IMG/VR virus record: IMGVR_UViG_3300037486_000582
Location: 1-64,000 of that record
Strand: one strand, 5' to 3'
DNA length: 64,000 nt
Source of the DNA: a virus
Each line of letters opens with the position of its first letter. Position 1 is the first letter of the stretch. The notes beneath the pieces are model-generated. The model was not told where the DNA came from. It searched no databases and was given only the letters and a program-made list of their open reading frames with translations. The position numbers were made by a program, and so were the translations under genes. Of this stretch, positions 41,090 through 55,502 are shown piece after piece.

Positions 41090-42022
41090 TCAGACCGCGA
41101 CCACTCCCGTCGCCTTCACGACCGCCGGCTCGTGCGCGAAGCGGAAGTCCACTCGCGCCGTGACGACGATGATGAAGACGCCCGCCGACACGTCGCGGTC
41201 GGTGTCGATGCGGATCTGACGCCACACGCCGAAGAGCATGTTGGCCGGGTCCGTCATCAGGACGACCGTCTCGTTCGTGCCGCCGCCCAGGTTGGTCGGG
41301 AACACGGGCACGCCCATGACCTCGATCCCCTGGAACGGCCGGGACTGGAGCCCCGTGACCTGCTCGTCGCCGAGCAGCGTGGCGCGGTCGCCGAGGTGCT
41401 CCTGGTAGTCGATGTCGGCCTCGTCCGCGGTGAGGAAGCGGAGGGTCCGCTTGTCCCGCCGGAACTCGGACGGCATCGTCTTCAGGATGTCCTTCAGCAC
41501 GGACCGCTGGAGCGTCGCCCCGCCCGCGAGCACGGTGTTCGTCACGGCGCGGACGATGAACCCGTTGAGCGTCTTCAGCAGGTCGTCGGTGGACGAGGTG
41601 TCGCCGTTGAACGCGAGGTCCTCCAGGTCGAGCCCGATGCGCTCGGCCATGGTCGCCCGCACGGTCGACTCGAACGTCCCGCGTTCGATGCTGTCCTCCA
41701 GTGCTTCGAAGCTGATGCGCGTTTCCGCCTTCACCAGCTGAGCGTCCAGCTCCACCTTGGACGTGTCGGGCACGGAGCGCTGGCCCAGAGGCAGCGACTG
41801 CGCCTCCGTTCCCTTGCGCAGCGCGCGGCTGCCGTACCGAATCTTCTCCCTGAGCTCCTTCGGCGCGTTCATGTCGACACGCGTCATCTGCGGCATCACG
41901 ACTGCCTGGTCGATTGCCAGCTGGATGAAGCGGTCGGCCTGGGCGGGCTCGAGAAGACCGCCGGGCGCGAGGTTGGCCAGGAGGAAGTCCGCCTTCTGGA
42001 CGATGTCTCTGTTGTCCTGCAT
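41090..42022 (-). CDS. Major capsid protein (HK97 fold)
   Basis: 310 residues from ATG at 42022 (GGAG upstream). Helical N-arm, then AQADRFIQLAIDQAVVMPQMTRVDM, ETRISFEALEDSIERG, ERIGLDLEDLAFNGD, RSVLKDILKTMPSEFRRDKRTLRFL and GIEVMGVPVFPTN. These are the spine helix, P-domain and A-domain of HK97-type capsids. It follows the scaffold-like gene by 13 nt and is expected to be cleaved by the XkdF-type protease encoded upstream. Confidence 0.9.
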   Translation of the reverse strand: MQDNRDIVQKADFLLANLAPGGLLEPAQADRFIQLAIDQAVVMPQMTRVDMNAPKELREKIRYGSRALRKGTEAQSLPLGQRSVPDTSKVELDAQLVKAETRISFEALEDSIERGTFESTVRATMAERIGLDLEDLAFNGDTSSTDDLLKTLNGFIVRAVTNTVLAGGATLQRSVLKDILKTMPSEFRRDKRTLRFLTADEADIDYQEHLGDRATLLGDEQVTGLQSRPFQGIEVMGVPVFPTNLGGGTNETVVLMTDPANMLFGVWRQIRIDTDRDVSAGVFIIVVTARVDFRFAHEPAVVKATGVVAV

Positions 42023-42035
42023 GGCTCCTTCTCCC

Positions 42036-43442
42036 TCACATGATCCACGGTCCGCCGCGGCGCCCGCTGCGAGACCTGTCCGTCGAGCCGTCGCCCTTCC
42101 CCTGCGTCGGCGCCTCACTCCTGCTCGCCGGTGCCTCGGGCGCGGCGGCGAGCGTCCTCTCCATGGTGTCCAGCCGCTTCATGACGGCCGTCATCGGATC
42201 GTCGGTCGGGCCGTCCTTGGCCGCCTTGTCGGCGGTCGGGCCGGAACCGACGTTGCCCAGGTTGCCGCCCTCGCGGGCGGGCGGGCTCGGCTGCGTCTCG
42301 GCGGATCGCTTCGCCGTGTCGGCCGTCGCTGTGACCGGCGTCGCGGCGTCGGCCAGAGCAGCGCCCGGTGTCTCGTCGCCGGCCGTGCCCTCGGTCTGCT
42401 CCAGCATCGCGAAGATGGGGCGGAGCGCGGCGAGGACACGCATGAGGCGCGACGGGCCGACCGCCTTCGACACGGTCTCGAGCTCGTCGTCGGAAAGCCC
42501 GGTGAGCGACTTGGCGACCCCGGCCACCTGATTGCGGATGGACACGAGCTCGTCCGGGGTCGTCGCTTCGGCGATCCGCGTGATGGCCTGGGCGATCACA
42601 GCGAGCTTGTCACCTGCCTCGCTCCCGACCCGCGAGAGCTTGGTGTCCATCTCCTTGTGGGACTCCTGCTCCGCCGGAGCAGCCAGCACCGCCCCCGCCT
42701 CGGCGACGACCGGCGGAGCTACCGCCGTTGCTGTCTCCGTGGCCTTCTCGCTCGTCGCGCTCTCCTTCTCCATCTCGACGGCTCCGCTCGGGGCAGCTCC
42801 AGCCGTCGGCTGCGGATACCGCTCCGCCAGCGCGTTCAGTTGAGCTGCCAGGTTACGGACGGCAGCCAGGGTGGCACCGTCCAGGGTTTCCGCGCCGGAC
42901 GCGCGCTGCGCGATCTCGCTCGCCGTGGCCGCGATCGTGGAGAGCGCCTGCGCCACCGCGCCACCGGCCTTCTCCGCCATCGCCGCCTCTCCCGGCTCTG
43001 CTGCCGCGCCGTCGCTCATGGGCGAAGGATACCGCGAGAGCGCCCCGCGCAGAAGGTCCGAGATCGTCTGGACCTCGGTGGCCAGTTCCGCGGGGACCGG
43101 CTGCGCGTTCGCTTCCGCCGTCTCCTGCGCGCCGCGGATCATGTTGCCGATGGACACGAGGCGCTCCGTCGCCTCGGTGACGACGCGCATCAGCCCTTCC
43201 TTCACCGGCGTCGGGAGCGACAACTCGGCCTTGGCGGTCGGCTGCTCCTCGGCTGCCCTGCTGTCTCCCTCCATGGTCCCTCCGTGCTTCACCACTAGGA
43301 ATCGGCGACGGTTCGCAGCTCGGTCAACCAGCGAGACCTCCTCAACGAGTATCTCGCTGAGCCGGTGCTGTGCTTCCACTGGGTCCAGCCCGAGGAAGAT
43401 GCGCGCCACTTCCAGCGCGTGATCGAGCTTGCTGATGTCCAC
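42036..43442 (-). CDS. Scaffold-like protein starting with a split XkdF C-terminal segment
   Basis: 468 residues from the GTG at 43442; TAGTCT lies 6 nt upstream (43449-43454), so a leaderless start is likely. The first 55 residues end in RLSEILVEEVSLVDRAANRRRFLVVK, which matches the C-terminal segment of XkdF-type prohead proteases. The protease core itself is at the end of the giant gene just upstream. The remainder is low-complexity, Ala/Glu-rich and helical, as expected of a scaffold. It immediately precedes the major capsid gene. Confidence 0.7.
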   Translation of the reverse strand: MDISKLDHALEVARIFLGLDPVEAQHRLSEILVEEVSLVDRAANRRRFLVVKHGGTMEGDSRAAEEQPTAKAELSLPTPVKEGLMRVVTEATERLVSIGNMIRGAQETAEANAQPVPAELATEVQTISDLLRGALSRYPSPMSDGAAAEPGEAAMAEKAGGAVAQALSTIAATASEIAQRASGAETLDGATLAAVRNLAAQLNALAERYPQPTAGAAPSGAVEMEKESATSEKATETATAVAPPVVAEAGAVLAAPAEQESHKEMDTKLSRVGSEAGDKLAVIAQAITRIAEATTPDELVSIRNQVAGVAKSLTGLSDDELETVSKAVGPSRLMRVLAALRPIFAMLEQTEGTAGDETPGAALADAATPVTATADTAKRSAETQPSPPAREGGNLGNVGSGPTADKAAKDGPTDDPMTAVMKRLDTMERTLAAAPEAPASRSEAPTQGKGDGSTDRSRSGRRGGPWIM

Positions 43443-43459
43443 GAGCACAGACTATACCC

Positions 43460-46400
43460 CTACGGAGCCTCAGGTCCAAGGGCTTCGCGCAACGCGGTTC
43501 CACCCATGCTGTAGCCGGTGAACGCGCCAGCCTTCACCGCAGCCCACACGTCGTCGTTCTTGACACGGGTGGCCAGGAACCACGTTCCCACGGGAAATGA
43601 CTCGCCGCCGTGCTCCTCGACGCGCTTGGAAAGGTAGCTCTCGATGGGGATGACGCCTTCCACGGGCTTCCCCTTGTGCATCACCTTCACCTTCCCGCCA
43701 AAGTGCTCCAGGAACGAATGAGCAGCCTTCTCGACCTCCTTCGCGCTGTAGACGTCGCCCTGCGCGTCGACCTCGTCTGGCACCAGAACGACGCCAAAGA
43801 CGTACCGCTCCTCTGTCTCGGGCGACTCGGCCTTCAGCAGCCGCACCGCGCGCTCGAGCTTGTGGAGCTTCGCGACGGGCTCGCCGCCGCGCACGAGCTC
43901 GCCGGGCCGGAGCAACCCGCGCACGTCCTCAGTCGACGACGGGGCGGCCCCGGGAATAATCTCGAGTGCCTCGGCCGGGCCGAACCACCTGACACGCCGC
44001 GGCGGCCCATCTTCCCAGAGGAGCTCCAGCAACTGGACCAAGATCGTGTCGCCGACGTTCGCGTCGAGCTTCTTGTTCCCGGTGCGCCCCACGGTGACGT
44101 AGGTCTTTCCGTCGTGCTCGACCGGCTCCGCCCACCCTGCGGCGTCACCCGCTGGGATCGGCCCCACGGCCCCGACGAAGTCGTAGACCCCGGGCGAGCC
44201 CTTCACCTCATGCCGGCCGACGACCAGCGCACGCAGCTCGCGTGTCAGCTTCACCTTCGCCCAGAGGTCGTTCTCTCCGCCAAGACTGTACGTGCTCCCG
44301 AACTGCTTGAGCAGCGCGCCTTCGCTCCCCGGCTGAGCCTTCGCCCATTCCATGCTGCGCACGAGCTGGCTTCTGGTCTTGGCCATGCGTCGCGGCGCGA
44401 GGATGAACCGCTCCCCGAGCTTCTGGCCTGCCCACCACCGCTCGAGCAGCCGCCGCCGCTGAGCCAACGGGACGGCCGTGAGGTTCCCTTGTGGACTGAG
44501 GTACAGCGCGTCGAAGACGACGAAGCGCAGGGCGCTGTCGTCGGCTGGCCCGGTCCCGCGAAAGCGCGCCAGCTCCCGCCGTGGCAGGAAGTTACCCTTG
44601 GCGTCCACGCCCATGATCTCGCCGTCGAGGATGAAGTTGCCTCCGACCTTCCGCAAGTCTGCCGTGAGCCCAGGAAGAACGGAGGAGAGGTCGCGCTTCC
44701 TGTCCTCCGTGAAGACAAGCACACCGCCGTCCTCCACGCCGGGAGCCACACCGGCGTCCCAGGACTCAGCAACGGCGCGGAAGCCGTTGTACTTGGGCTC
44801 GACCTGGACTCCGTCACGGACGAGCTGGTCCGTGAAGACGGTCCGCGCCGCGAGGTCGGCGTCGGTGAACGTGGACGTCTCGCGTTTCGCCGGCTTCATC
44901 GGCTGGAACAGGGCTGGCGGACGGAGCAACGTGCGGTCGCCGCCCTTGTCGTCGGTATCGTCGATGTCGGCCGGGTCCCACACCTGTGTTCCATCTGACT
45001 GGACGCGGAATCGCTTCTCGGCCGGCTCCACCGGAGTGCTGCTCACGGTGCCGTTCGCGAGCGCGTGGACGTGCGTGTTGCCGCGCAACGCCGGGCCGCC
45101 GGTGCGCCCAGCGTCGGCGAGGCCGTGGACGTGCGCCTGGCCGCCGCGTTCGGTTGTCGTAACCCCGCCGCCGGGCAGCCGGTGGCTGTGACCTTGTGCC
45201 TCCGTCTGCTTCGGAATGGCGCGCCGCGGGTCGGACCCCGGGCTGAACTGGAACAGGTCTGAGTCGACCTCCTCAGCGACGAGCGTGAACAATCCCTTGA
45301 GCCGCTGACCGCCGAGCCGGAACTTCAGGAACGCGCGCTGGGCGTCGAGGAGGTCGGCGCGACCGCTGTCGATCCGCTGGATGCCGGACGCCGTGTTCTT
45401 CGTATCGTTCAGCGCCAGCCCGGCGACGCGCGTCCCTGGAGCCACGTCGCCTTCGAAGTTGAGCAGCGCGTTGCCGGCCTCCTGTCTGACGCCGGCAATG
45501 ACCTCCTCACCCGAGAGCGGATCGCGCTGGAGCTGGAAGTCCCACACCCCGGAGCCGTCCGGTTTCCCCAGGACCAGGTGCCACACCTGACGACTCGGCG
45601 CCGCACGGACGACGGTCTGTCCCTTCCACCACTGCCAGAGCAGCGCGAAGGGCACGCGCTCCTGTTTCGCGACGGGCTCCGTCTCTTCTTCCTCCGGGTC
45701 GTACCCCTCTCGGAGAACCTTCCGCTCGCTCCTGCGGTACTGGAACTCCCCATCGAGGACGACGTTCTCCTCCGTGAAGAAGCGGGCGTCCACGAGCGCG
45801 TCTCGGATGCGCCGCGCCTCGGCCTCACTGTCCGCGAGCCAGAACCTGTACTCCCGCGGCGTCGCCTGCATGAGCGTCGTAGGCATCCCGCTCTGCCCAA
45901 GCGGGGGCATCGTCTCGTTGTCGACGGAGTGCCGGCGCAACACGCCGGGGAGCAGCACCTTGTTGAACCCGCCCGTCCAGAAGGTTTCGCCCTCCTGCGC
46001 GACGCCTTCCTCCATTGGCTGGTCCCCGCCTTCCAGCATCCGGAAGGTCAGCGTCCCACTGAACTTCGGGTCACCCGTGAGGAAGTACTCGTGCGAGAAC
46101 GGCTTCTGCAGTCCCCACTCCGCCTGCGGTGTCGCCACCTCGACGTAGACCCCGGGCTCGTTCCGCGTCGCCCCGACCCCGCCCGGCTCCACGACGACGT
46201 CGCCGAGGTCAAGCCAGACAGTCGGCTGCCGGCTCTTGGCCGCCGCGAAGATCCGGTCCGGGAGCATCATCGGCTTGGTGTAGCGGCTGCCGGCCACGTC
46301 GAAGGCGTCGGCAATGACGCGCGCCTCGGCAACCGTGTTGACCTCGGGGACGGCCCCAGCCTTCTGGAGCGCCATGGTCCAGCCGACCAGGAAGTCCTTC

Positions 46401-49135
46401 ACCTGCATTCGGAGGTCGGCGTGCAGCGTCTTCCCGCGGAAGTGGAACTGCATCACGGCCGGCCGCTTGCCGGGCGCGTCGGGCCAGTCTTGAAGCGGGT
46501 CGTCCTGCTTCGCTGTGAGTGCCATCTCCTTGACGGTTCGGTCCTCGTGCGGAACGAGGACCAGGTCGTACAAGGCGACGTGGTTCGTGTACGGGCCGCC
46601 CTGCCCCTCCGTGTGGAACTGCACCCGCTGAGAGAGCCGCGGCCCGAGCGCGCGTCCGAGGCGAAACTTGATGACGTGCTCCGTGTCCGCGTCGAACGGG
46701 CCACGAATCAGAAGGTCGATGTCGTTCTCGCTCTTACCCGCGTTGCAGACCGAGCCGACCAGGTAGACGGCCGGCATCCGCAACGCCATCGGCTTCGACA
46801 GGGCGCCGAGAACCTCGGTCAGCGCGACCGGGTCGTCGGCATGGACAGCGGCCCCTCCGGGATAGATGGGGGCGAACTGCCCGTCTCCATCCACGTCGCC
46901 CTTCGACATGCCCCGCCGGAGCAACGCGGTCGTCTCCTCCGCGAGCGGGTCGACCTCGACGGTCTGCACGTTCCGGCGCTCGAGCTCGCGGAGCAGCATG
47001 ATGTGGGCGTTGACCACGTCCTCCCGCGTGACGCCTTCCGCCCTGGTCGTGCGCGGAGGGAAGGCTCGGGCGAACAGCCTGTGAAGCTCCCTGTCCATGG
47101 AGATGAGCTGCCCGTCCGGCTCCGTCGCGAGCGCCTCCGGGCTCGGGTCGGCGACGAACTCCTGAATCGCCTTGAGCGTCCTGTCGCGAAGGGCATCGTC
47201 GATGGTCAACTGCCTGGACTTCTCGACGTCCCTGTCGAAGTCCACCGTGGCGCCGAACCGCCGGCCGCCGGGCGGCTGCTTCAGCCGAAGCGGTGGCTCG
47301 AACAGCACGACCAGGTTCAAGGGCAGGTACCAGATGCTCTGCTCGGTGGCGAACTCCCTGGCCGAGAACTCGTCGACTCCGGCCCGCTGTTCCGCCGTGA
47401 GCTGCGCCATCGAGTCGATCTGCACCGGGTCGTCCTGAGCAACGACAGCCCAGACGTAAGCTCCGTCGAAGTCCGCTGGCGCGACCTCGTTGACGAGCGC
47501 CTGGGGCTGGCCGACGCGGGTCGTGCGCCGCCGCCTGGAGAGCAGCCCGGCCGTCTGCCCAGCCCGCAGCCTTGCGATGAAGTGCTTCGGGTCCGGCACC
47601 TTGAGCGCCGGAAGCTCTCCGCGCGGCGGCTCGGCCTGCCACACCATGACCGGAACGAGCCCGCGCGACGTGATGACCGCCGCTCCAAGTTCCTCGATGT
47701 CGCCGGACTGGGCAAGGGAACAGACCGCCGGGTCCAGGAACGCTGCCTTCCGCGCCTCGCGAACGACGTCCGCCGCGAGGTCGACGTGCGCGCCCTGGGC
47801 ACGCCCCGCAGGGGCAGCCCGAAGCTGAAGCGGTGGGCTGAACGACCGGACGACTGTGGCCGGGATGTAGAAGAGGCTCTCCGCCTTGGCGAAGTACGCC
47901 TTCGTCTGCTCCGCGACGTGAGCAGCGCGGCCGCCGAGGGCTTCGACGGAAGCCACGCGCTCCGCGTCCCCAAGGGTAGCGACTGCCCAGACGAACGAGT
48001 CGGAGAAGCCCAGCGGCTCCAACTCGTTCACGAGCGCCTGCTGGACCCCGGTGCGCCCGCGCATCGCCGTCGAGGAGAGAACGCCGACAGGCAAGCCCTG
48101 GCGTGCACGCTCGAGCAGGAACCGCGGGTTGGGCACACGCAGCGTCGGGAAGGAGCCGGATTCCGCCATGAAGACCTGGACGTCTCGAACGACGACCTGT
48201 GGGCCAGTCGGAACGTTCGTCTCCAGGGGTTCCGGGAAGGCGGCGACAACCTTGACCGGCCAAGCGTACAGCGGAGCAGCACACCAAGACGGCTGCGCCC
48301 CGCACCATTCGGCGCGGATGGCCTGCGTGATCCTGTGCTCGTCTTCGCGGGCAGCGAACTGCTCATCCGAGAGCTCCGCGACGGTGCCAAGTTCAACGAC
48401 GCCGAGCGCTCGCCTCCCGTTGAGCAGCACGTACCGCGCCTCTCCGATGTCGAGCGGGCGGCTCTTGACGAGCAACGTCTTCTCCCCGGACAGGATGGCC
48501 TCGGCCATGGCCATCGGAGAGACGGCAAGCCCAACGGTCGGAAGATCGTCGTCCTGCTTGCCGAGGCCGACGACGACCCCGGGATGGACCGCTTCGGACA
48601 ACGCGCGCAATGCGGAACGCGCAAGGCTCGTCAGGACGGTCGGGCCGAATCGCAGCGTGTGCGTGTGCTCGCCGTCCATCACCGTTCGCGCGCCGGCGAG
48701 CGCGTGCGGGTGAAGCCCGGCCGTCTCGGTGATCAGTTCGACGCCGTCGCCGAGCGCCACGACGTGGCGGTGCCCGCTTCCAGCCGGAGCAGCCGCCCCG
48801 TCCACGATCTGGTGGGCGTGCGGTCCATCGCTGTTCGTCACGAGCATCGCCCCGGCCGGAAGCGTAACCCGTTCGCCGCCGGCCAGGCCGACGATGGTGG
48901 TCCCGCCGAGGTGGAAGACGTGCTGATGGAGCCCGCCCAGGCCGGTCTCCGTCGTGGACGATACGTCGTGGACGTGGGCGCCGGAGGCACACTCGAGATC
49001 GCCGAGCCTGTGCATCATGTCGATCTGCGTGCGCTCCGCGTCCTTCGCGCGTTCAGCGAGCAGCGCCTCGGCGTTCTTCAGCGCCACGTCCATACGACGC
49101 TCGAGCTCCTCTCGCGGTGTGCAGGCAGCCGTCAT
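43460..49135 (-). CDS. Giant polyvalent protein: NTase, phosphoesterase, ATP-dependent ligase and XkdF-type prohead protease
   Basis: 1,891 residues from ATG at 49135 (ATGA overlap). Order: paired-His repeats (about 50-160: AHVH, HQH, HAH, HRH, HPH, HTH); ASCH-like module (about 205-325, ILSGEKTLLVKSR); two tandem repeats (about 326-460 and 508-642); pol-beta-type nucleotidyltransferase (about 793-860, GSVCNAGKSENDIDLLI, later LYDLVL); LigD-type phosphoesterase motif (about 893-911, FHFRGKTLHADLRM), plus a degenerate second copy (about 1165-1290); a second His-pair cluster (about 1315-1358). The ATP-dependent ligase core is at about 1445-1700: motif I EPKYNGFR at Lys1448, ILDGEI, FDALYL, EGALLK, WAKVKL, then OB fold. 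The XkdF protease is at about 1775-1885 (FGVVLVPDEVDAQGDVYS, PVGTWFLATRV, TGYSMGG). Activities are inferred from motifs. Confidence 0.8.
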   Translation of the reverse strand: MTAACTPREELERRMDVALKNAEALLAERAKDAERTQIDMMHRLGDLECASGAHVHDVSSTTETGLGGLHQHVFHLGGTTIVGLAGGERVTLPAGAMLVTNSDGPHAHQIVDGAAAPAGSGHRHVVALGDGVELITETAGLHPHALAGARTVMDGEHTHTLRFGPTVLTSLARSALRALSEAVHPGVVVGLGKQDDDLPTVGLAVSPMAMAEAILSGEKTLLVKSRPLDIGEARYVLLNGRRALGVVELGTVAELSDEQFAAREDEHRITQAIRAEWCGAQPSWCAAPLYAWPVKVVAAFPEPLETNVPTGPQVVVRDVQVFMAESGSFPTLRVPNPRFLLERARQGLPVGVLSSTAMRGRTGVQQALVNELEPLGFSDSFVWAVATLGDAERVASVEALGGRAAHVAEQTKAYFAKAESLFYIPATVVRSFSPPLQLRAAPAGRAQGAHVDLAADVVREARKAAFLDPAVCSLAQSGDIEELGAAVITSRGLVPVMVWQAEPPRGELPALKVPDPKHFIARLRAGQTAGLLSRRRRTTRVGQPQALVNEVAPADFDGAYVWAVVAQDDPVQIDSMAQLTAEQRAGVDEFSAREFATEQSIWYLPLNLVVLFEPPLRLKQPPGGRRFGATVDFDRDVEKSRQLTIDDALRDRTLKAIQEFVADPSPEALATEPDGQLISMDRELHRLFARAFPPRTTRAEGVTREDVVNAHIMLLRELERRNVQTVEVDPLAEETTALLRRGMSKGDVDGDGQFAPIYPGGAAVHADDPVALTEVLGALSKPMALRMPAVYLVGSVCNAGKSENDIDLLIRGPFDADTEHVIKFRLGRALGPRLSQRVQFHTEGQGGPYTNHVALYDLVLVPHEDRTVKEMALTAKQDDPLQDWPDAPGKRPAVMQFHFRGKTLHADLRMQVKDFLVGWTMALQKAGAVPEVNTVAEARVIADAFDVAGSRYTKPMMLPDRIFAAAKSRQPTVWLDLGDVVVEPGGVGATRNEPGVYVEVATPQAEWGLQKPFSHEYFLTGDPKFSGTLTFRMLEGGDQPMEEGVAQEGETFWTGGFNKVLLPGVLRRHSVDNETMPPLGQSGMPTTLMQATPREYRFWLADSEAEARRIRDALVDARFFTEENVVLDGEFQYRRSERKVLREGYDPEEEETEPVAKQERVPFALLWQWWKGQTVVRAAPSRQVWHLVLGKPDGSGVWDFQLQRDPLSGEEVIAGVRQEAGNALLNFEGDVAPGTRVAGLALNDTKNTASGIQRIDSGRADLLDAQRAFLKFRLGGQRLKGLFTLVAEEVDSDLFQFSPGSDPRRAIPKQTEAQGHSHRLPGGGVTTTERGGQAHVHGLADAGRTGGPALRGNTHVHALANGTVSSTPVEPAEKRFRVQSDGTQVWDPADIDDTDDKGGDRTLLRPPALFQPMKPAKRETSTFTDADLAARTVFTDQLVRDGVQVEPKYNGFRAVAESWDAGVAPGVEDGGVLVFTEDRKRDLSSVLPGLTADLRKVGGNFILDGEIMGVDAKGNFLPRRELARFRGTGPADDSALRFVVFDALYLSPQGNLTAVPLAQRRRLLERWWAGQKLGERFILAPRRMAKTRSQLVRSMEWAKAQPGSEGALLKQFGSTYSLGGENDLWAKVKLTRELRALVVGRHEVKGSPGVYDFVGAVGPIPAGDAAGWAEPVEHDGKTYVTVGRTGNKKLDANVGDTILVQLLELLWEDGPPRRVRWFGPAEALEIIPGAAPSSTEDVRGLLRPGELVRGGEPVAKLHKLERAVRLLKAESPETEERYVFGVVLVPDEVDAQGDVYSAKEVEKAAHSFLEHFGGKVKVMHKGKPVEGVIPIESYLSKRVEEHGGESFPVGTWFLATRVKNDDVWAAVKAGAFTGYSMGGTALREALGPEAP

Positions 49136-49479
49136 GTCGTCACCTTCGGCCCCTCCGGTGGACCCCAAGCCCGCTCCGGAGCGGGCGGTTCCCACACGGT
49201 TCCGTCCAGCGTCGCACGCAGCGCCCGCGGAAGCGAGTCCAGCGCACGCTGGGTGCTGTAGTGGAGGTCCACGCGGAGCTTCGCGAACCAGTCGTAGCAG
49301 ATGTTCGCCCTCCGCTTCACCTCGGCCTCCGTCGGAGCAACCGAGACGGTGACGATGAGGCTCGCCGCCCGGTCCTCCACGAAGCTGTTGCGAACGACCC
49401 GCCCGACCGCGGCAAAGACACGGCGCAGAGAGGCCTCGTCCTTCACTAGAGCGACCAGGAACTCGCGCTTCGTTGACAT
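49132..49479 (-). CDS. Small protein upstream of the giant gene
   Basis: 115 residues from ATG at 49479, ribosome site GGGGAAGG adjoining. The frame is open further upstream but overlaps the MuF-like gene without a signal. Contains FLVALVKDEASLRRVFAAVGRVVRNSFVEDRAASLIVTVSV and a helical RANICYDWFAKLRVDLHYSTQRALDSL. No family recognised; stop overlaps the giant gene's start, so they are coupled. Confidence 0.55.
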   Translation of the reverse strand: MSTKREFLVALVKDEASLRRVFAAVGRVVRNSFVEDRAASLIVTVSVAPTEAEVKRRANICYDWFAKLRVDLHYSTQRALDSLPRALRATLDGTVWEPPAPERAWGPPEGPKVTT

Positions 49480-49490
49480 CCTTCCCCTCG

Positions 49491-50735
49491 TTACAGGACA
49501 GGGACCGTCGTGCACCGGCAGCTCGCGTGAGCGGGAGGCACCATCGCCCCGCCACCGCTCCCCGCCCCGCCACCGACCGGCCTGTAGACGCCGACTCGGT
49601 CGACGACCCCGAACCCGCGCTGCTGAATCTGTGCGACGGGCGGACCGAGCGGACCGCCGCGCGGAGAGACATGAATTTGGTCCCCGACGACCCTGTACCA
49701 CGCCGACATGTTGACCGCGGCTTCAGGGTCGGGGCTCCGCAGGGCGGCTTCGGTGCGCGTCAGCGACGACTCGACGGGGAACTGCTGGCCGTGTAGCCAA
49801 CGGCACGTCTCACACGTCCGCTCGTCGAGGACAGCCTCCCACGTGTAGGAGTCGATCTCGGCCACGCCGTAACCAACCATCTGTCCGTAGGACCGGGCCT
49901 GGGCGACGGCCGCACTCGCGACGGCGCGGTAGTAGTTCTCGTCCCGTCCAAGAGCAGCACCGCGCATAGCCACGGCGAGGTCTTGTGCGATTTGCCTGTA
50001 GCCGAGCCCCTCGGCGGCACCCTCGCCAACGATGCGCCGAGCAGCCCGGGAGAACCGCTCACTTCGGCGAGCGAACTCGTCGGAGATGAAGACGGACCCG
50101 TTCCGTCCGATTCTCCGGGCGAGCTCCCGTTCGACCGGACTGAACGTGAAGGCCAACCCGCGAGCAGCCGTCGCCCCCAACGCTGACCTCTGGGCGACGG
50201 ACGCCGCAACCTGCTGAAGCTGGCCGAGCGCACCTTCTCGGAAGTCCCGGCTCCCCGGGATGTCCCGTACTGCAGTCGCCAGCATGGCGATGGCGTTGTC
50301 GACCTGAGCCGCGGTCATGGTTGGCCACGGTCGGCGGAGCTGGTCCAGCGCACGACGAAGGGTCCTCCGTGCTGACGCACGGCTGGTGGCCCGGAGAGCG
50401 CGTTCCAAGCGTTCGATGGCCAACGCAAACGCACGACGAGACAGCGGGAGGTCCGCCTTCTCGACGGTCACCGTGTCCTGCTGGAACGGCCAGAGCCAGA
50501 GGCCACTCTGCGTCTGGATGGCGCCACGGTAGACGAGGACATCGCGCTCGGTCGCCTCGGCCAACGCCTTCGCAGCCGGCCCGACCTCCCGGGCATCGGC
50601 GATGCGATGCAGCAGGCCGATCTCTGGAATCGCAATTGCGACCGCACCGCAGGCCGTCAGGGCAGGCGGGTCCGCGAACAGGACGCCCCGTGGGTCGCCC
50701 ACCTCGGTCCAGGGCGGTCCGAGCAACGCGGTCAT
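49491..50735 (-). CDS. MuF-like head morphogenesis protein (SPP1 gp7 type)
   Basis: 414 residues. C-terminal domain: YTWEAVLDERTCETCRWLHGQQFPV ... PPAHASCRCTTVPVL, the Cys/His hallmark of MuF/SPP1 gp7 (D-x-x-T-C-x-x-C ... P-P-x-H-x-x-C-R-C). The N-terminal 250 residues are helical (AIERLERALRATSRASARRTLRRAL). It is injected or assembled at the portal vertex. Placed between portal and protease genes as in SPP1-like and Mu-like phages. Confidence 0.85.
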   Translation of the reverse strand: MTALLGPPWTEVGDPRGVLFADPPALTACGAVAIAIPEIGLLHRIADAREVGPAAKALAEATERDVLVYRGAIQTQSGLWLWPFQQDTVTVEKADLPLSRRAFALAIERLERALRATSRASARRTLRRALDQLRRPWPTMTAAQVDNAIAMLATAVRDIPGSRDFREGALGQLQQVAASVAQRSALGATAARGLAFTFSPVERELARRIGRNGSVFISDEFARRSERFSRAARRIVGEGAAEGLGYRQIAQDLAVAMRGAALGRDENYYRAVASAAVAQARSYGQMVGYGVAEIDSYTWEAVLDERTCETCRWLHGQQFPVESSLTRTEAALRSPDPEAAVNMSAWYRVVGDQIHVSPRGGPLGPPVAQIQQRGFGVVDRVGVYRPVGGGAGSGGGAMVPPAHASCRCTTVPVL

Positions 50736-50738
50736 CGC

Positions 50739-51194
50739 TCAGACGGCGTCCCTGGGCATCGGAGCTCCGCCGGTCGCGCAGAGCACAACGTCCGTCGCCC
50801 CGGCCGCCACGTAGGCCGTGATACGGAACGCGACCAGGTGTCCGTCCACCGGAACCTGCGCGCTGGCGGCCAGCCCGGTCAAGCCACCGACCGACGTGAG
50901 CGTCTTCCAGCGCCGTCCGAGCGGAGCAGCGGCGTCCGGCGTCGCGACCATTGGCAGGACGTCGACGGACCCGCCGTCCACTGGTGCCCCGGTCGGGCCA
51001 CGGAAGTCGGCGATCAGCCTGACGCTCAGCCACTCTCGAGCATCGAGGATGACGACGTCGGGGCCGAGCTCACCCGCGTTCCTGTTGTCCGGTGTCCAGA
51101 GACCCGACACCGGAGCGTCCGGCGCGTTCCGCGGAGCCCGGACGTCTGTCTTCGCACTCGGACTGTAGAGCCTACGCTTCGTGGGAGCTGTCAT
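50739..51194 (-). CDS. Small head-region protein
   Basis: 151 residues, GGAGG before ATG, overlapping the portal gene by 23 nt. N-terminal basic segment, beta-rich centre (WLSVRLIADFRG, VDVLPMVATPD), C-terminal ITAYVAAGATDVVLCATGG. Looks like a small portal-associated or capsid-vertex beta protein. No family recognised. Confidence 0.55.
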   Translation of the reverse strand: MTAPTKRRLYSPSAKTDVRAPRNAPDAPVSGLWTPDNRNAGELGPDVVILDAREWLSVRLIADFRGPTGAPVDGGSVDVLPMVATPDAAAPLGRRWKTLTSVGGLTGLAASAQVPVDGHLVAFRITAYVAAGATDVVLCATGGAPMPRDAV

Positions 51195-53058
51195 CTGCGT
51201 CCTCCTCGTGCCCGAGCGGGTTCGAAGCCGCCCGAGCAGCCGCGGCGTCCAGTGCGGCCAGCGCGCTGTCGCCTTCCGTGTGCGTCCTGCGTCGGCCGAG
51301 GGCGAGCCCTTGGTGCGACAAGTTCACGAGGTCTTGCGCCTCGGCGACGTCGAGCCCGGCGACCGCCGGTGGCATGTCCTCCGGTGCGCCCTCCACCGGA
51401 GGGGCGAAGCCGGCGAGCGTGAGCTGGATCGGCTGCTTCGCCCACGGCAGGTCCAGCGGGTCGAGCTCGTGGCCGAGGATGTCGCTCGAAAGGTAGCGTG
51501 CTTCGTTCGGGGTGATTGCCCCGACCTTCGCCAGATCGAGGATGACAGCCGCCACCCGTTCCGGGTCGCGGGTCTGCGGCCCGAGCGAGCGGAAGGTCCA
51601 CATTCGGATGTCGAGCATCGGAAGGATGACCCTGTTCAGCCAGGAGTCGAACTCCTTCCGCTCGGGCTCGAACACCTGCTCGTCGGCAAAGCGCAAACTC
51701 GCGTCGGCCGTGGACTTGTTGAAGTCGCGCACGTCACCGCGGAGCAGCCGGGGCAGGCGGAAGGAGCTGCCGATCTTGTCCACGTTCCGCTCGTCGTACT
51801 TCTGGAACATGGCGTCGCCCTTCTGCACGTCGCCGAGGCGTTCGAACGTGAGCCGCGGGTGCTCGTGCGGCGACATCGGGTCGCCTTCGTCGTCGGCCTC
51901 GATGACCATGATCTTGTGGAAGTTCTCGCGCCCCTTGATGTGGTCGCGGATGAACGTCTCGATCCTGGTCACGCTCTCCGAGCTGAGCCGCCCGCCGGAC
52001 ACGAGCAGCGCCAGCGGCGGAATGGCCTTGTTGTCGAAGTAGGCGAAGTTGACCTCGTCCGACGCCCGGCTGCCGAGGACCGCGAGCAGGTTCCCGATCC
52101 AGCGCGGGACACCGTAGGGCTCGCCAGTCCTGTGAATGCGGAAGTGGACCATCTCGGTCGCCTGGTGCTCGCGACCGCGGGTCTGCTCCGCGAAGACCGC
52201 CAGGTTCGCATAGATGCGCCCAGTCTCTCTGGAGACGACCCGCGGGTCGCCAAACTGCTTGAACCAGATGATCTTTGAACCGACCGCCTGGACGTAGCGG
52301 CGGAAGAACTTCGGCTGGTAGATGACCTCCCAGCCAAGCCCGAGGTGGACGCGGTCGGGTACCATGACAGGAATCTCGTCCAGCGCGGTGCAGCGGACGT
52401 GTGTCGGCGGCACCCCAACGAAGCGACTCACCTCCCCGACGCGGTTCCGAAGGATCTCCCAGAAGCCGTTGCCGACGATCTCAAGGTCCTGTCTCGTGTG
52501 GCGGCGAAGCGTCTCGAAACTCCCGTCTGGGTAGACGCCTTCGAAGAACGAGTCGAGCCGCGCCTTCTCGAACCGCGCTCGGATGCGGAGTGCCTCGACG
52601 GTCTTCGCGACCACCTCGTCCGTCGGAAGGTACTGCTCTGGGTCCTTGACCCGGCTCGCCTGTGCCAGCACGTCCGCGTCGTCCGCCGCGTCTCGGAGGT
52701 CGTCGCTCGCTGCCGTCGATGCCTCCGCCGCGCGCACGCGCTCGACCCACATGGCGTCGCGGACCTTCTCCTCCGCCTCCTCGCCGAACAGGTCGAACCG
52801 AGCAGCGAAGCGGTAGCCGAGGCCGTCGATGTTGGTGACGTACGCCTGGACGTTCTGCGGAAGGGCGCTGCTGTTTTCCCACATCCGCAGAAGGTCGATC
52901 GGATTGTACGGCGGTTCGAGGACACCGGCCTCGCGGAAGATGGACTGAAGCTGGTCCGTGTCCTCGCGAATGGAGACCGGAGCGTGGACGGCTTGTCCGA
53001 GCAGCCGCGCCTTCAGCGTCGCGCGTGGTTCCTTCGGTTCTTCCTGTGCGTCGGCCAT
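51172..53058 (-). CDS. Portal protein
   Basis: 628 residues. No Shine-Dalgarno; TAACGT lies 6 nt before ATG, suggesting a leaderless start. PPYNPIDLLRMWENSSALPQNVQAYVTNIDGLGYRF, LRRHTRQDLEIVGNGFWEILRN, YGVPRWIGNLLAVLGSRASDEVNFAYFDNKAIPPLALLVSGG and DKIGSSFRLPRLLRGDVRDFNKSTADASLRFADEQVF match PBSX/HK97-type portals. Forms the dodecameric DNA entry channel; N-terminal tail helical and C-terminus acidic. Confidence 0.9.
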   Translation of the reverse strand: MADAQEEPKEPRATLKARLLGQAVHAPVSIREDTDQLQSIFREAGVLEPPYNPIDLLRMWENSSALPQNVQAYVTNIDGLGYRFAARFDLFGEEAEEKVRDAMWVERVRAAEASTAASDDLRDAADDADVLAQASRVKDPEQYLPTDEVVAKTVEALRIRARFEKARLDSFFEGVYPDGSFETLRRHTRQDLEIVGNGFWEILRNRVGEVSRFVGVPPTHVRCTALDEIPVMVPDRVHLGLGWEVIYQPKFFRRYVQAVGSKIIWFKQFGDPRVVSRETGRIYANLAVFAEQTRGREHQATEMVHFRIHRTGEPYGVPRWIGNLLAVLGSRASDEVNFAYFDNKAIPPLALLVSGGRLSSESVTRIETFIRDHIKGRENFHKIMVIEADDEGDPMSPHEHPRLTFERLGDVQKGDAMFQKYDERNVDKIGSSFRLPRLLRGDVRDFNKSTADASLRFADEQVFEPERKEFDSWLNRVILPMLDIRMWTFRSLGPQTRDPERVAAVILDLAKVGAITPNEARYLSSDILGHELDPLDLPWAKQPIQLTLAGFAPPVEGAPEDMPPAVAGLDVAEAQDLVNLSHQGLALGRRRTHTEGDSALAALDAAAARAASNPLGHEEDADDSSHEA

Positions 53059-53837: not shown

Positions 53838-55424
53838 TCATCCGATGGCGCGAACTCCAGACGACGACGATGAAGACGCCCGCCGGCCGGTGTCGCGACG
53901 GAGTTTCCGCTCGTACATGCGCGCCGCTTCCCGCGCGATCCAGGAGGCCATGAGCCGGTCGCCGGTGTGACCTTGCGGGTCGTAGGCCAGCATGTCGTCG
54001 ATCCAGTCGGCGACGCCCCTGGCGACGCGCCGGGAACCGACTTCGCAGGGGATGAGCCACCGGGAAGCCGCCATCTCCGCGGCGAGGCTCTCGACGCCGT
54101 ACTCCGGGGACAGCTTGTTGCGGCCCGTGGTGAAAGCGCGGACGCGCATCCCAGGAGCGCGTTCCCTGACCCACTGGACGAGGAAGTCCTGAGCAGCGTT
54201 GTTCTCCACGACGACCGTCGAGCGGAAGCGTTCGTTCACCGAGACGACCCGGTCGATGATCTCCGGGCCGCTCCACCGCCCCGCCTGAACCTCCAGCACT
54301 TGGCGCATCCCATTTGGCCAGAGCAGCAGCGTGAACAAGGCGCTCTTGCCGGACCCCGGCCGTGCGCTGATCGCGAGGTCGACGCCGGTGATGGTCATGA
54401 AGCCGGCCGGCATCCCGCCCATCTCGAGCAACTCCTCCGTCAGACTCATCTCGGCGGCGAACTCGGGGTCGCGCTCCGCGATGTCTTGCAGACTGCTGTA
54501 CGTCGCGAACCCTTCGCCGAGCGCCAGGCACTGCTCGATCCACGACCGCTGGAACCGCGCGGTGCTCTCGTCGCGCGGCTGGCAGAGCATCTGACGAGAG
54601 AACTCGATCGGCCCGAGCACCTGGGTTCGGACGTGCTCGATCCGGTCCAGCGGCCACCGCTCCGGCCAGGCCAGCTTGCCGTCCTGGTCCAAGACGGGAA
54701 ACCGCATCGAGTGCCACCCCTGGCGCTCCAAGTTGTGGGCCATGTCCTTCGGGTGCCAAGCGTTCGTCAGGAGGCAGACCCACGCACCCTTCGCGAGCCG
54801 CGGGAAGGCGGAAGCGCGAATCCACTCCTCGATCTTGTCCCGCTGGTAGTTGGTGCGTGTGTTGTTCTCGGTCAGGACGTCGTCGATGATGAGCCCGTCG
54901 AGCCGCGCGCCCTGGATGGTTCCTCCCTCCGGCGAGTAGGCTTGCAGGGACGGGTCCTTGATGCCGCCCGGACGCTCCACTTCCAACGAAACGTCGGTCC
55001 AGAGCGTGCCGCGACGAAGGTCTGGGAAGACCTGGTGGAGTATCTGGTTCTCGATGATGTGCTGCTGCGCGGTGCGGATGATCTTCTTTGCCTGGCTCTG
55101 CGTCGCGGACAGAACTGCGTACCGCCGACGCTGGTCCTTCCCGAGCAGCCAGAGGACGCGGGCGATGGCGAGCTGCTGTGTCTTTCCGCTCTCGGGGAAC
55201 GCCCAGATGACCACGTTGCGGTAGCGCTCGATGGCGTAGTGCCAGGCTGCCTGGAAGGGCTTCACCTGGATGTGGTTCCCCGTCTCCTCGTCCCGGAGGA
55301 CCATCTCGCAGAACGCGGGACAGTCCCGCCGCGCCAGACGGAGCATCGCCGCCCACGCAAGCTGCGCCTGCTCACCGATACCATCCGTCGGCGCGTCGCG
55401 CGCCACGCCCGTTCCAATGCCCAT
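53838..55424 (-). CDS. Terminase large subunit
   Basis: 528 residues from ATG at 55424. An earlier ATG (55436) is embedded in the TATGCT box, and there is no Shine-Dalgarno, so a leaderless start is likely. ATPase: VVIWAFPESGKTQQLAIARVLWLLG (Walker A-like, with a Gly-Lys-Thr), DGLIIDDVLTENN (Walker B) and LLTNAWHPKDMA. Nuclease: ITGVDLAIS, STVVVENNAAQDF, then GVADWIDDMLAYDP. No small subunit was recognised nearby. The 5' end faces the plus-strand accessory promoter at 55.5 kb. Confidence 0.85.
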   Translation of the reverse strand: MGIGTGVARDAPTDGIGEQAQLAWAAMLRLARRDCPAFCEMVLRDEETGNHIQVKPFQAAWHYAIERYRNVVIWAFPESGKTQQLAIARVLWLLGKDQRRRYAVLSATQSQAKKIIRTAQQHIIENQILHQVFPDLRRGTLWTDVSLEVERPGGIKDPSLQAYSPEGGTIQGARLDGLIIDDVLTENNTRTNYQRDKIEEWIRASAFPRLAKGAWVCLLTNAWHPKDMAHNLERQGWHSMRFPVLDQDGKLAWPERWPLDRIEHVRTQVLGPIEFSRQMLCQPRDESTARFQRSWIEQCLALGEGFATYSSLQDIAERDPEFAAEMSLTEELLEMGGMPAGFMTITGVDLAISARPGSGKSALFTLLLWPNGMRQVLEVQAGRWSGPEIIDRVVSVNERFRSTVVVENNAAQDFLVQWVRERAPGMRVRAFTTGRNKLSPEYGVESLAAEMAASRWLIPCEVGSRRVARGVADWIDDMLAYDPQGHTGDRLMASWIAREAARMYERKLRRDTGRRASSSSSSGVRAIG

Positions 55425-55431
55425 CGGCCCA

Positions 55432-55441
55432 AGCATACCGC
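55432..55441 (-). promoter_or_regulatory. GCGGTATGCT box giving a leaderless terminase start
   Basis: TATGCT, 7 nt, ATG; identical 11-mer and spacing to the J gene. Divergent from the accessory promoter at 55589-55617. Confidence 0.5.
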
Positions 55442-55502
55442 ACTGTGACGCGCGCCGCGACCGCAACGGAAGCGGCGGACGAGCAACGTCCTACAGCCTC
55501 CG

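Follow-up and report, generated by a model that had tools for sequence, protein, structure and literature searches.

The window analysed here is the whole stretch of 64,000 nucleotides at positions 1 to 64,000 of the IMG/VR virus record IMGVR_UViG_3300037486_000582, which represents an uncultivated tailed phage. Its minus strand contains an uninterrupted frame running from 49135 to a stop at 43460 (1,891 codons), as the preliminary description had stated. The encoded polyprotein combines in one chain a nucleotidyltransferase (NTase), two phosphoesterase (PE) domains, an ATP-dependent DNA ligase with a predicted OB fold, and a C-terminal XkdF domain, while an ASCH domain and His-rich repeats occupy the N-terminal half, ahead of the NTase. 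The gene and its neighbors, in the order of transcription, are as follows.

53838..55466 (-): terminase large subunit (PHROG 38, E 1.5e-56)
51172..53058 (-): portal protein (Phage_portal, E 2.3e-16)
49491..50735 (-): MuF-like minor head protein (Phage_Mu_F, E 1.6e-9)
49132..49500 (-): small conserved gene, its stop overlapping the polyprotein start (found in 24 loci)
43460..49135 (-): polyprotein gene, 1,891 aa (open frame, full-length homologs, purifying selection)
42036..43448 (-): scaffold-like gene, its start bearing the tag EVSLVDRAANRRRFLVVK (phrog_3017 positions 4-31, E 7e-4)
41090..42118 (-): major capsid protein (Phage_capsid, E 1.1e-8; PHROG 1623, E 1e-81)

Within the polyprotein, the following regions were distinguished.

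48629..48988 (-): N-terminal His-rich (HxH) repeats, aa 50-169 (conserved HxH pairs in the alignment, local profile)
48236..48553 (-): ASCH domain, aa 195-300 (AlphaFold model of aa 186-649, Foldseek)
47759..48157 (-): REP domain, copy 1, aa 327-459 (local profile; low model confidence)
47219..47623 (-): REP domain, copy 2, aa 505-639 (local profile, alignment; confidently folded in the model)
46931..47146 (-): helical MID domain ahead of the NTase, aa 664-735 (helical in the AlphaFold model)
46523..46822 (-): Pol-beta-superfamily NTase, aa 772-871, with G794 S795, D805, D807, D857 (motif, weak fold match)
46034..46459 (-): PE1, LigD-type 3'-phosphoesterase domain, aa 893-1034, with H898, H905, D907, R909 (hhalign, Foldseek)
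45251..45637 (-): PE2, a further PE-like copy lacking the His motif, aa 1167-1295 (PE1/PE2 profile cross-match)
45050..45208 (-): second short HxH-rich block, aa 1310-1362
44249..44926 (-): ATP-dependent DNA ligase adenylation domain, aa 1404-1629, with K1448; E1605, K1610; K1627, K1629 (Pfam, family profile)
43922..44236 (-): putative ligase OB-fold region, aa 1634-1738 (conserved profile)
43487..43822 (-): XkdF head-maturation protease domain, aa 1772-1883, with D1790, H1820, S1876 (Pfam, PHROG)

The gene order listed above, from the terminase to the major capsid protein, is observed both in the window and across relatives, and the polyprotein gene sits in the head-protease slot of the head operon. 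At 65 XkdF loci, some of which are short contigs, a MuF or portal gene was found upstream in 42, and a scaffold or capsid gene downstream in 61. According to a strict motif search, the tag EVSLVDRAANRRRFLVVK stands at the start of the next gene in at least 26 out of 66 relatives; in phrog_3017 this tag precedes the XkdF protease within one chain, whereas here it is on the next gene.

The full record comprises 108,577 bases and has a 176-base terminal repeat (175/176 identity), and thus is probably near complete. The polyprotein carries the sole XkdF and the sole ATP-dependent ligase found in it. The record also encodes RecA, SbcCD-like proteins, PolA, and contractile-tail genes; Ku was not found in the 108.6-kb record by a search in which a control genome did match.

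The same minus-strand frame continues open upstream of 49135, as far as 49672. A start near 49135 (ATG) is backed by the alignment, as the homologs align from about this point, and the small upstream gene ends overlapping this ATG. Full-length homologs of the polyprotein are present on two independent viral contigs, with identity of 75% (L001) and 60% (L002/L006), and the nonsynonymous-to-synonymous ratios against L001 are 0.10-0.37 in every domain, which shows purifying selection along the entire chain. Taken together, these data exclude a frameshift, an assembly error, or any other joining of separate genes, which the preliminary description had named as one of the ways in which its reading could fail. 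On the opposite strand, a frame of 1,227 aa lies at 45578-49261 (+); given that the minus frame is under purifying selection in all domains, it was treated as a probable shadow of the GC-rich strand that codes for the polyprotein, and not as a gene.

The C-terminal fusion to an XkdF-type capsid protease, claimed initially from the sequence, is borne out by profile searches. Peptidase_S78_2 of Pfam matches aa 1772-1883 with E 7.8e-26 (91 bits, the cut-off being 24), and the PHROG head maturation protease profile matches the same domain with E 1.2e-29. The putative catalytic residues are almost invariant across relatives (D1790 in 65/65, H1820 in 65/65, S1876 in 64/65), and the D/H/S columns are also invariant when standalone XkdF proteins are included. 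A proteolytic role of the domain is predicted from the family annotation.

The ligase core was likewise recovered: DNA_ligase_A_M of Pfam matches aa 1440-1629 with E 5.6e-16, the family profile matches solved DNA ligases with E 1e-25, motifs I, III, IV, and V are present, and the ligase lysine K1448 is kept in 73 out of 75 relatives. The profile that probably represents the OB fold directly follows the core and is conserved in 83 out of 98 relatives. Some members without a recognizable ligase core (L011, L016, L018, L034) still have PE and XkdF.

The nucleotidyltransferase motif noticed at the outset is real: G..DxD is invariant in 81/81 relatives, and the third Asp is found in 63/81. This is the catalytic motif of the Pol-beta superfamily; the more specific assignment to a polymerase, made originally, may be treated as a candidate reading. 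The best Foldseek fold match of the domain is an MNT nucleotidyltransferase, and it is weak (prob 0.93, E 0.065); Pol X/TdT are the top sequence matches, with an insignificant E of about 0.3; and PE1 starts directly behind, about 20 residues past the NTase core, which bears on the room for the finger and thumb domains of a Pol X enzyme.

The phosphoesterase of this polyprotein scores under the Pfam and NCBIfam thresholds (LigD_PE_dom matches aa 1226-1289 in PE2 weakly, E 0.085), and in homologs L033 and L106 it exceeds the LigD_N cut-off. In hhalign comparisons, the PE1 family matches cellular LigD PE with E 1.2e-8, and control alignments yield 0.07-0.29. AlphaFold models cover aa 644-1303 and aa 186-649 of the polyprotein. 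For the former, spanning the NTase-PE stretch, the only PDB matches of Foldseek at E <= 0.001, and its top seven, are seven solved LigD PE structures, with TM-score by target of 0.55-0.80. Judged by profile comparison and the predicted structure, the PE domain of the polyprotein is of the LigD type. The domain assignment of the preliminary description thus held, and the segment given for it (1160-1300) needed correction, as the region begins at aa 893 and comprises two copies. The PE1 and PE2 profiles match each other, and only PE1 has the H-x6-H-x-D-x-R motif, with H, H, and D conserved in 82/82 relatives and R in 81/82. Opposite the LigD metal ligand His84, 62 out of 82 relatives have Gln, as does this polyprotein (Q970), and just two have His, and therefore the chemistry of this PE may differ from that of LigD.

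With the model of aa 186-649, two folded domains taken as a whole, Foldseek yields the ASCH structures 2dp9, 5y6b, and 5guq (prob 1.00). The similarity of the N-terminal His-rich repeats to YmaF reaches E 0.085 at best; both HxH-rich blocks are possibly metal-binding. The MID domain is found in 74 out of 98 relatives.

A search of genome contigs with the polyprotein as a single query gave no confirmed relative. The search with the PE segment identified 36 viral contigs and one contig from a Myxococcales MAG, and two further scans with tighter alignment sets brought the total to 98 distinct relatives. Among these, 66 end in XkdF, which is the last domain in all 66; ligase and XkdF occur in one chain in 53, and the four-part combination of NTase, PE, ligase, and XkdF in 49. 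Relatives at about 25-40% identity retain the catalytic residues of each of the four enzymes. The domains, their near-invariant active sites, the context, and the recurrence of the arrangement are thus matters of observation. The search for other single chains with ligase and XkdF, suggested as a check, therefore gave a clear answer: 53 distinct chains among uncultivated viruses mean that this fusion is not rare in nature.

Two classes of architecture can be distinguished, namely, class A, NTase-PE-PE-ligase-OB-XkdF, which includes the polyprotein of the window, and class B, NTase-(methyltransferase)-ligase-OB-(UDG)-PE-XkdF. The domain order is permuted among relatives, the ligase preceding PE in 40 and following it in 23. 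According to Pfam, the same chains in relatives contain D12 (Dam-type) DNA methylase, other methyltransferases, uracil-DNA glycosylase (UDG; 23 out of 98 relatives), and metallo-beta-lactamase-fold domains; all the swappable modules (D12 methylase, methyltransferase, UDG, metallo-beta-lactamase fold, ASCH) are nucleic-acid-acting or common phage cargo. In the record itself, outside the window, there is a 907-aa fusion of UDG, 3'-5' exonuclease, and family A DNA polymerase (G000:C1:95706-98429 (-); L156:13709-16429), so that UDG is here in a separate polymerase-fusion gene, as opposed to many class B relatives, where it is inside the polyprotein.

Other family members lack XkdF. On the PE tree, XkdF-bearing forms are separated by at least three changes, and hence the association with XkdF has been gained or lost several times. 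In the split forms L103, L106, L110, and L112, an NTase-ligase-OB gene is followed by a neighboring gene for a LigD-type PE, and XkdF was not found on either of the two. Among 50,697 GenBank phage records, ANMV-1 alone has the NTase-ligase-PE core, without XkdF. The adjacent ANMV-1 protein AJP62005 (L004:1913-3190), listed as "MutT-like phage hydrolase," matches Phage_portal_3 with E 3e-22, and hence the ANMV-1 ligase gene lies directly behind a portal gene.

The 105.8-kb contig JACPVI010000063.1, binned as a Myxococcales MAG, contains two different polyprotein copies, L042 and L043, one near each end and oppositely oriented, with portal and MuF genes ahead of either copy; the copies may stem from two phages or from a duplication, or the contig may be chimeric. 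The idea of a prophage was rejected, as no family member turned up in 194 other Myxococcota genomes.

Taking all this into account, we propose that the polyprotein is the head-maturation protease of the phage, preceded in the same chain by a kit for DNA repair and protection, a reading to which we give about even chances. Packaging, cleavage, injection, their timing, and the substrate are the parts of this model that we infer; the genomic position and the conservation of the protease residues make packaging, self-processing, and injection, as suggested in the preliminary description, plausible. The XkdF end would carry the polyprotein into the procapsid along with the scaffold; at maturation, the protease would cleave the scaffold and itself, freeing the upstream enzymes within the head; and these would remain with the DNA, acting on ejection or already during packaging. 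PE would clean damaged 3' ends, the ligase would seal nicks, and the NTase would fill gaps or nucleotidylate a target; in some lineages, UDG would excise uracil, and the Dam-type methylase would methylate and protect the DNA. More tentatively, with somewhat less than even chances, the same may apply to a widespread class of tailed-virus proteins, where a repair and protection kit carried in the virion would be built around the head-maturation protease, its enzymes being released in the capsid by self-cleavage and delivered with the genome.

The repair-kit model is favored by the invariably last position of XkdF (66/66), the 49 four-part chains, and the conserved place in the head operon, with even the XkdF-free form of ANMV-1 adjoining a portal gene; by the link to XkdF made or lost repeatedly and the swappable nucleic-acid-acting modules; by the catalytic residues kept across relatives; and by the absence of any further ATP-dependent ligase or XkdF from the probably near-complete record. 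On the other hand, the PE site differs from that of LigD at the His84 position in most relatives, RecA, the SbcCD-like proteins, and PolA of the record itself could perform repair without packaged enzymes, PE2 has no His motif, and the ligase core is lost in L011, L016, L018, and L034.

The neighborhood of portal, MuF, and terminase genes would also suit action at the time of assembly, the chain mending nicks and ends during packaging while in the prohead at the portal, and then being cleaved and destroyed or expelled; indeed, scaffold-protease cores are usually degraded and exit the head. The methylase modules of relatives fit protection in the next host better, though they could act before packaging, and we regard assembly-time action as unlikely, if with an appreciable chance. 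It is also conceivable, with a somewhat smaller chance, that the polyprotein is a polyvalent anti-defence effector, whose methylases, NTase, ASCH, and phosphoesterase act, once injected, against defences based on restriction, signalling nucleotides, or RNA targeting, repair being secondary. Polyvalent phage proteins fuse NTase-like enzymes to head proteins (PMC5512222), the D12 modules resemble restriction-modification methylases, and a 2H phosphoesterase-XkdF fusion exists in a cultured phage. However, the conserved core of NTase, PE, and ligase suits DNA repair, UDG recurs in relatives (23/98), and P0001 matches no defence family.

The translational fusion to a protease could, alternatively, be an expression device, by which ordinary cytoplasmic replication and repair proteins are cut free. 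Although the ligase is the sole ATP-dependent one found in the record, and L103, L106, L110, and L112 have NTase-ligase and PE as adjacent genes without XkdF, the location among late head genes in most lineages, the invariably C-terminal XkdF, and its repeatedly gained or lost link render this improbable. The least probable explanation, in our opinion quite doubtful, is phage-borne end joining, with the polyprotein as a LigD substitute circularizing the injected linear genome, similar to Ku-encoding mycobacteriophages, which are thought to do so with the host LigD. The predicted PE fold, confirmed in the model, and the order NTase-PE-ligase, equal to Pol-PE-Lig of mycobacterial LigD, agree with it; yet neither Ku in the near-complete record nor a primase-type polymerase domain (Pfam, NCBIfam) was found, the domain order is permuted in relatives (ligase before PE in 40, after it in 23), and RecA is encoded in the record.

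If the repair-kit model is true, phages carry active ligase and end-repair enzymes in their heads, loaded via fusion to an obligate prohead protein. This would provide a direct reason for the presence of repair genes inside head operons, a natural route of protein loading into capsids, and a testable answer to the question of how environmentally damaged genomes become usable at infection.

Among the known systems, bacterial LigD is the one suggested by the preliminary description, which saw a LigD-like break-repair machine. The polyprotein has in common with it the LigD-type PE fold with the H/H/D/R motif and the ATP-dependent ligase with an OB region, and the class A order NTase-PE-ligase is LigD-like (in mycobacterial LigD, the domain order is Pol-PE-Lig). 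Unlike LigD, it has an NTase instead of a primase-type polymerase, with no match to a primase-type (AEP) polymerase domain in Pfam and NCBIfam; two PE-like copies; Gln at the His84 position, not conserved here; and a fusion to a capsid protease, and the record has no Ku. Thus, the comparison stands for PE and ligase, and the polyprotein is not LigD by membership, the primase-type polymerase and Ku being absent and the PE site altered. In function, it may resemble the half of LigD responsible for end cleaning and sealing, or else a set for base excision and nick repair; UDG and methyltransferases predicted in relatives suggest repair of nicks or bases, together with protection of the DNA, more than classical end joining.

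The closest annotated relative is the ANMV-1 "ATP-dependent DNA ligase" AJP62006, with NTase, ligase, OB, and PE in 866 aa, similarly encoded next to a portal gene. It differs in the order NTase-ligase-PE and in having no XkdF, belongs to an archaeal virus, and is annotated merely as a DNA ligase. A functional likeness, with no homology claimed, is seen with large DNA viruses of animals, which carry base-excision repair sets in the virion: these also include a Pol-X-like transferase, a ligase, and end-processing enzymes in the particle, as separate proteins unfused to a capsid protease.

With XkdF proteases of cultured phages, the polyprotein shares the Peptidase_S78_2 family, the D/H/S residues, the head-operon slot, and the EVSLVDxxAN tag on the associated scaffold. 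The cultured XkdFs examined are, in contrast, either short and standalone or fused to a scaffold, with one further case of a 2H phosphoesterase-XkdF. The latter, gp18 of Arthrobacter phage Salgado (L047:3293-4411), joins a 2H phosphoesterase domain of the 2'-5' RNA ligase superfamily to XkdF and represents a cultured, simpler case of an enzyme and a head protease in one chain; its label "RNA ligase" was rejected, as the domain is a 2H phosphoesterase. Similarly rejected was the label "DNA methyltransferase" on XkdF proteins of cultured phages, as Lactococcus 28201 and Rhizobium RHph_I4 show no methylase domain.

In polyvalent phage proteins, NTase and similar enzyme domains are fused to head proteins (PMC5512222). 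The family described here resembles them in being large and multi-domain, with swappable enzymes linked to virion proteins, e.g., MuF (Iyer et al., 2017; PMC5512222), and the polyprotein is, as they are, a multi-domain chain encoded among virion structural genes; the differences are the head protease as the hub and a conserved core made up of PE and ligase. XkdF is absent from that paper (PMC5512222), and in a survey of jumbo phages it is mentioned just as a head peptidase (PMC7824862). The arrangement had been expected to be rarely, if ever, described, and this is correct as regards publication, no description of a ligase-PE-XkdF fusion having been found in the literature searched, the scope of which left many subscription papers outside, while in nature, with its 53 ligase-XkdF chains, it is not rare. 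The polyprotein family is thus a real, conserved variant of multi-enzyme virion proteins, so far unnoticed because it has essentially no representative among cultured phages.
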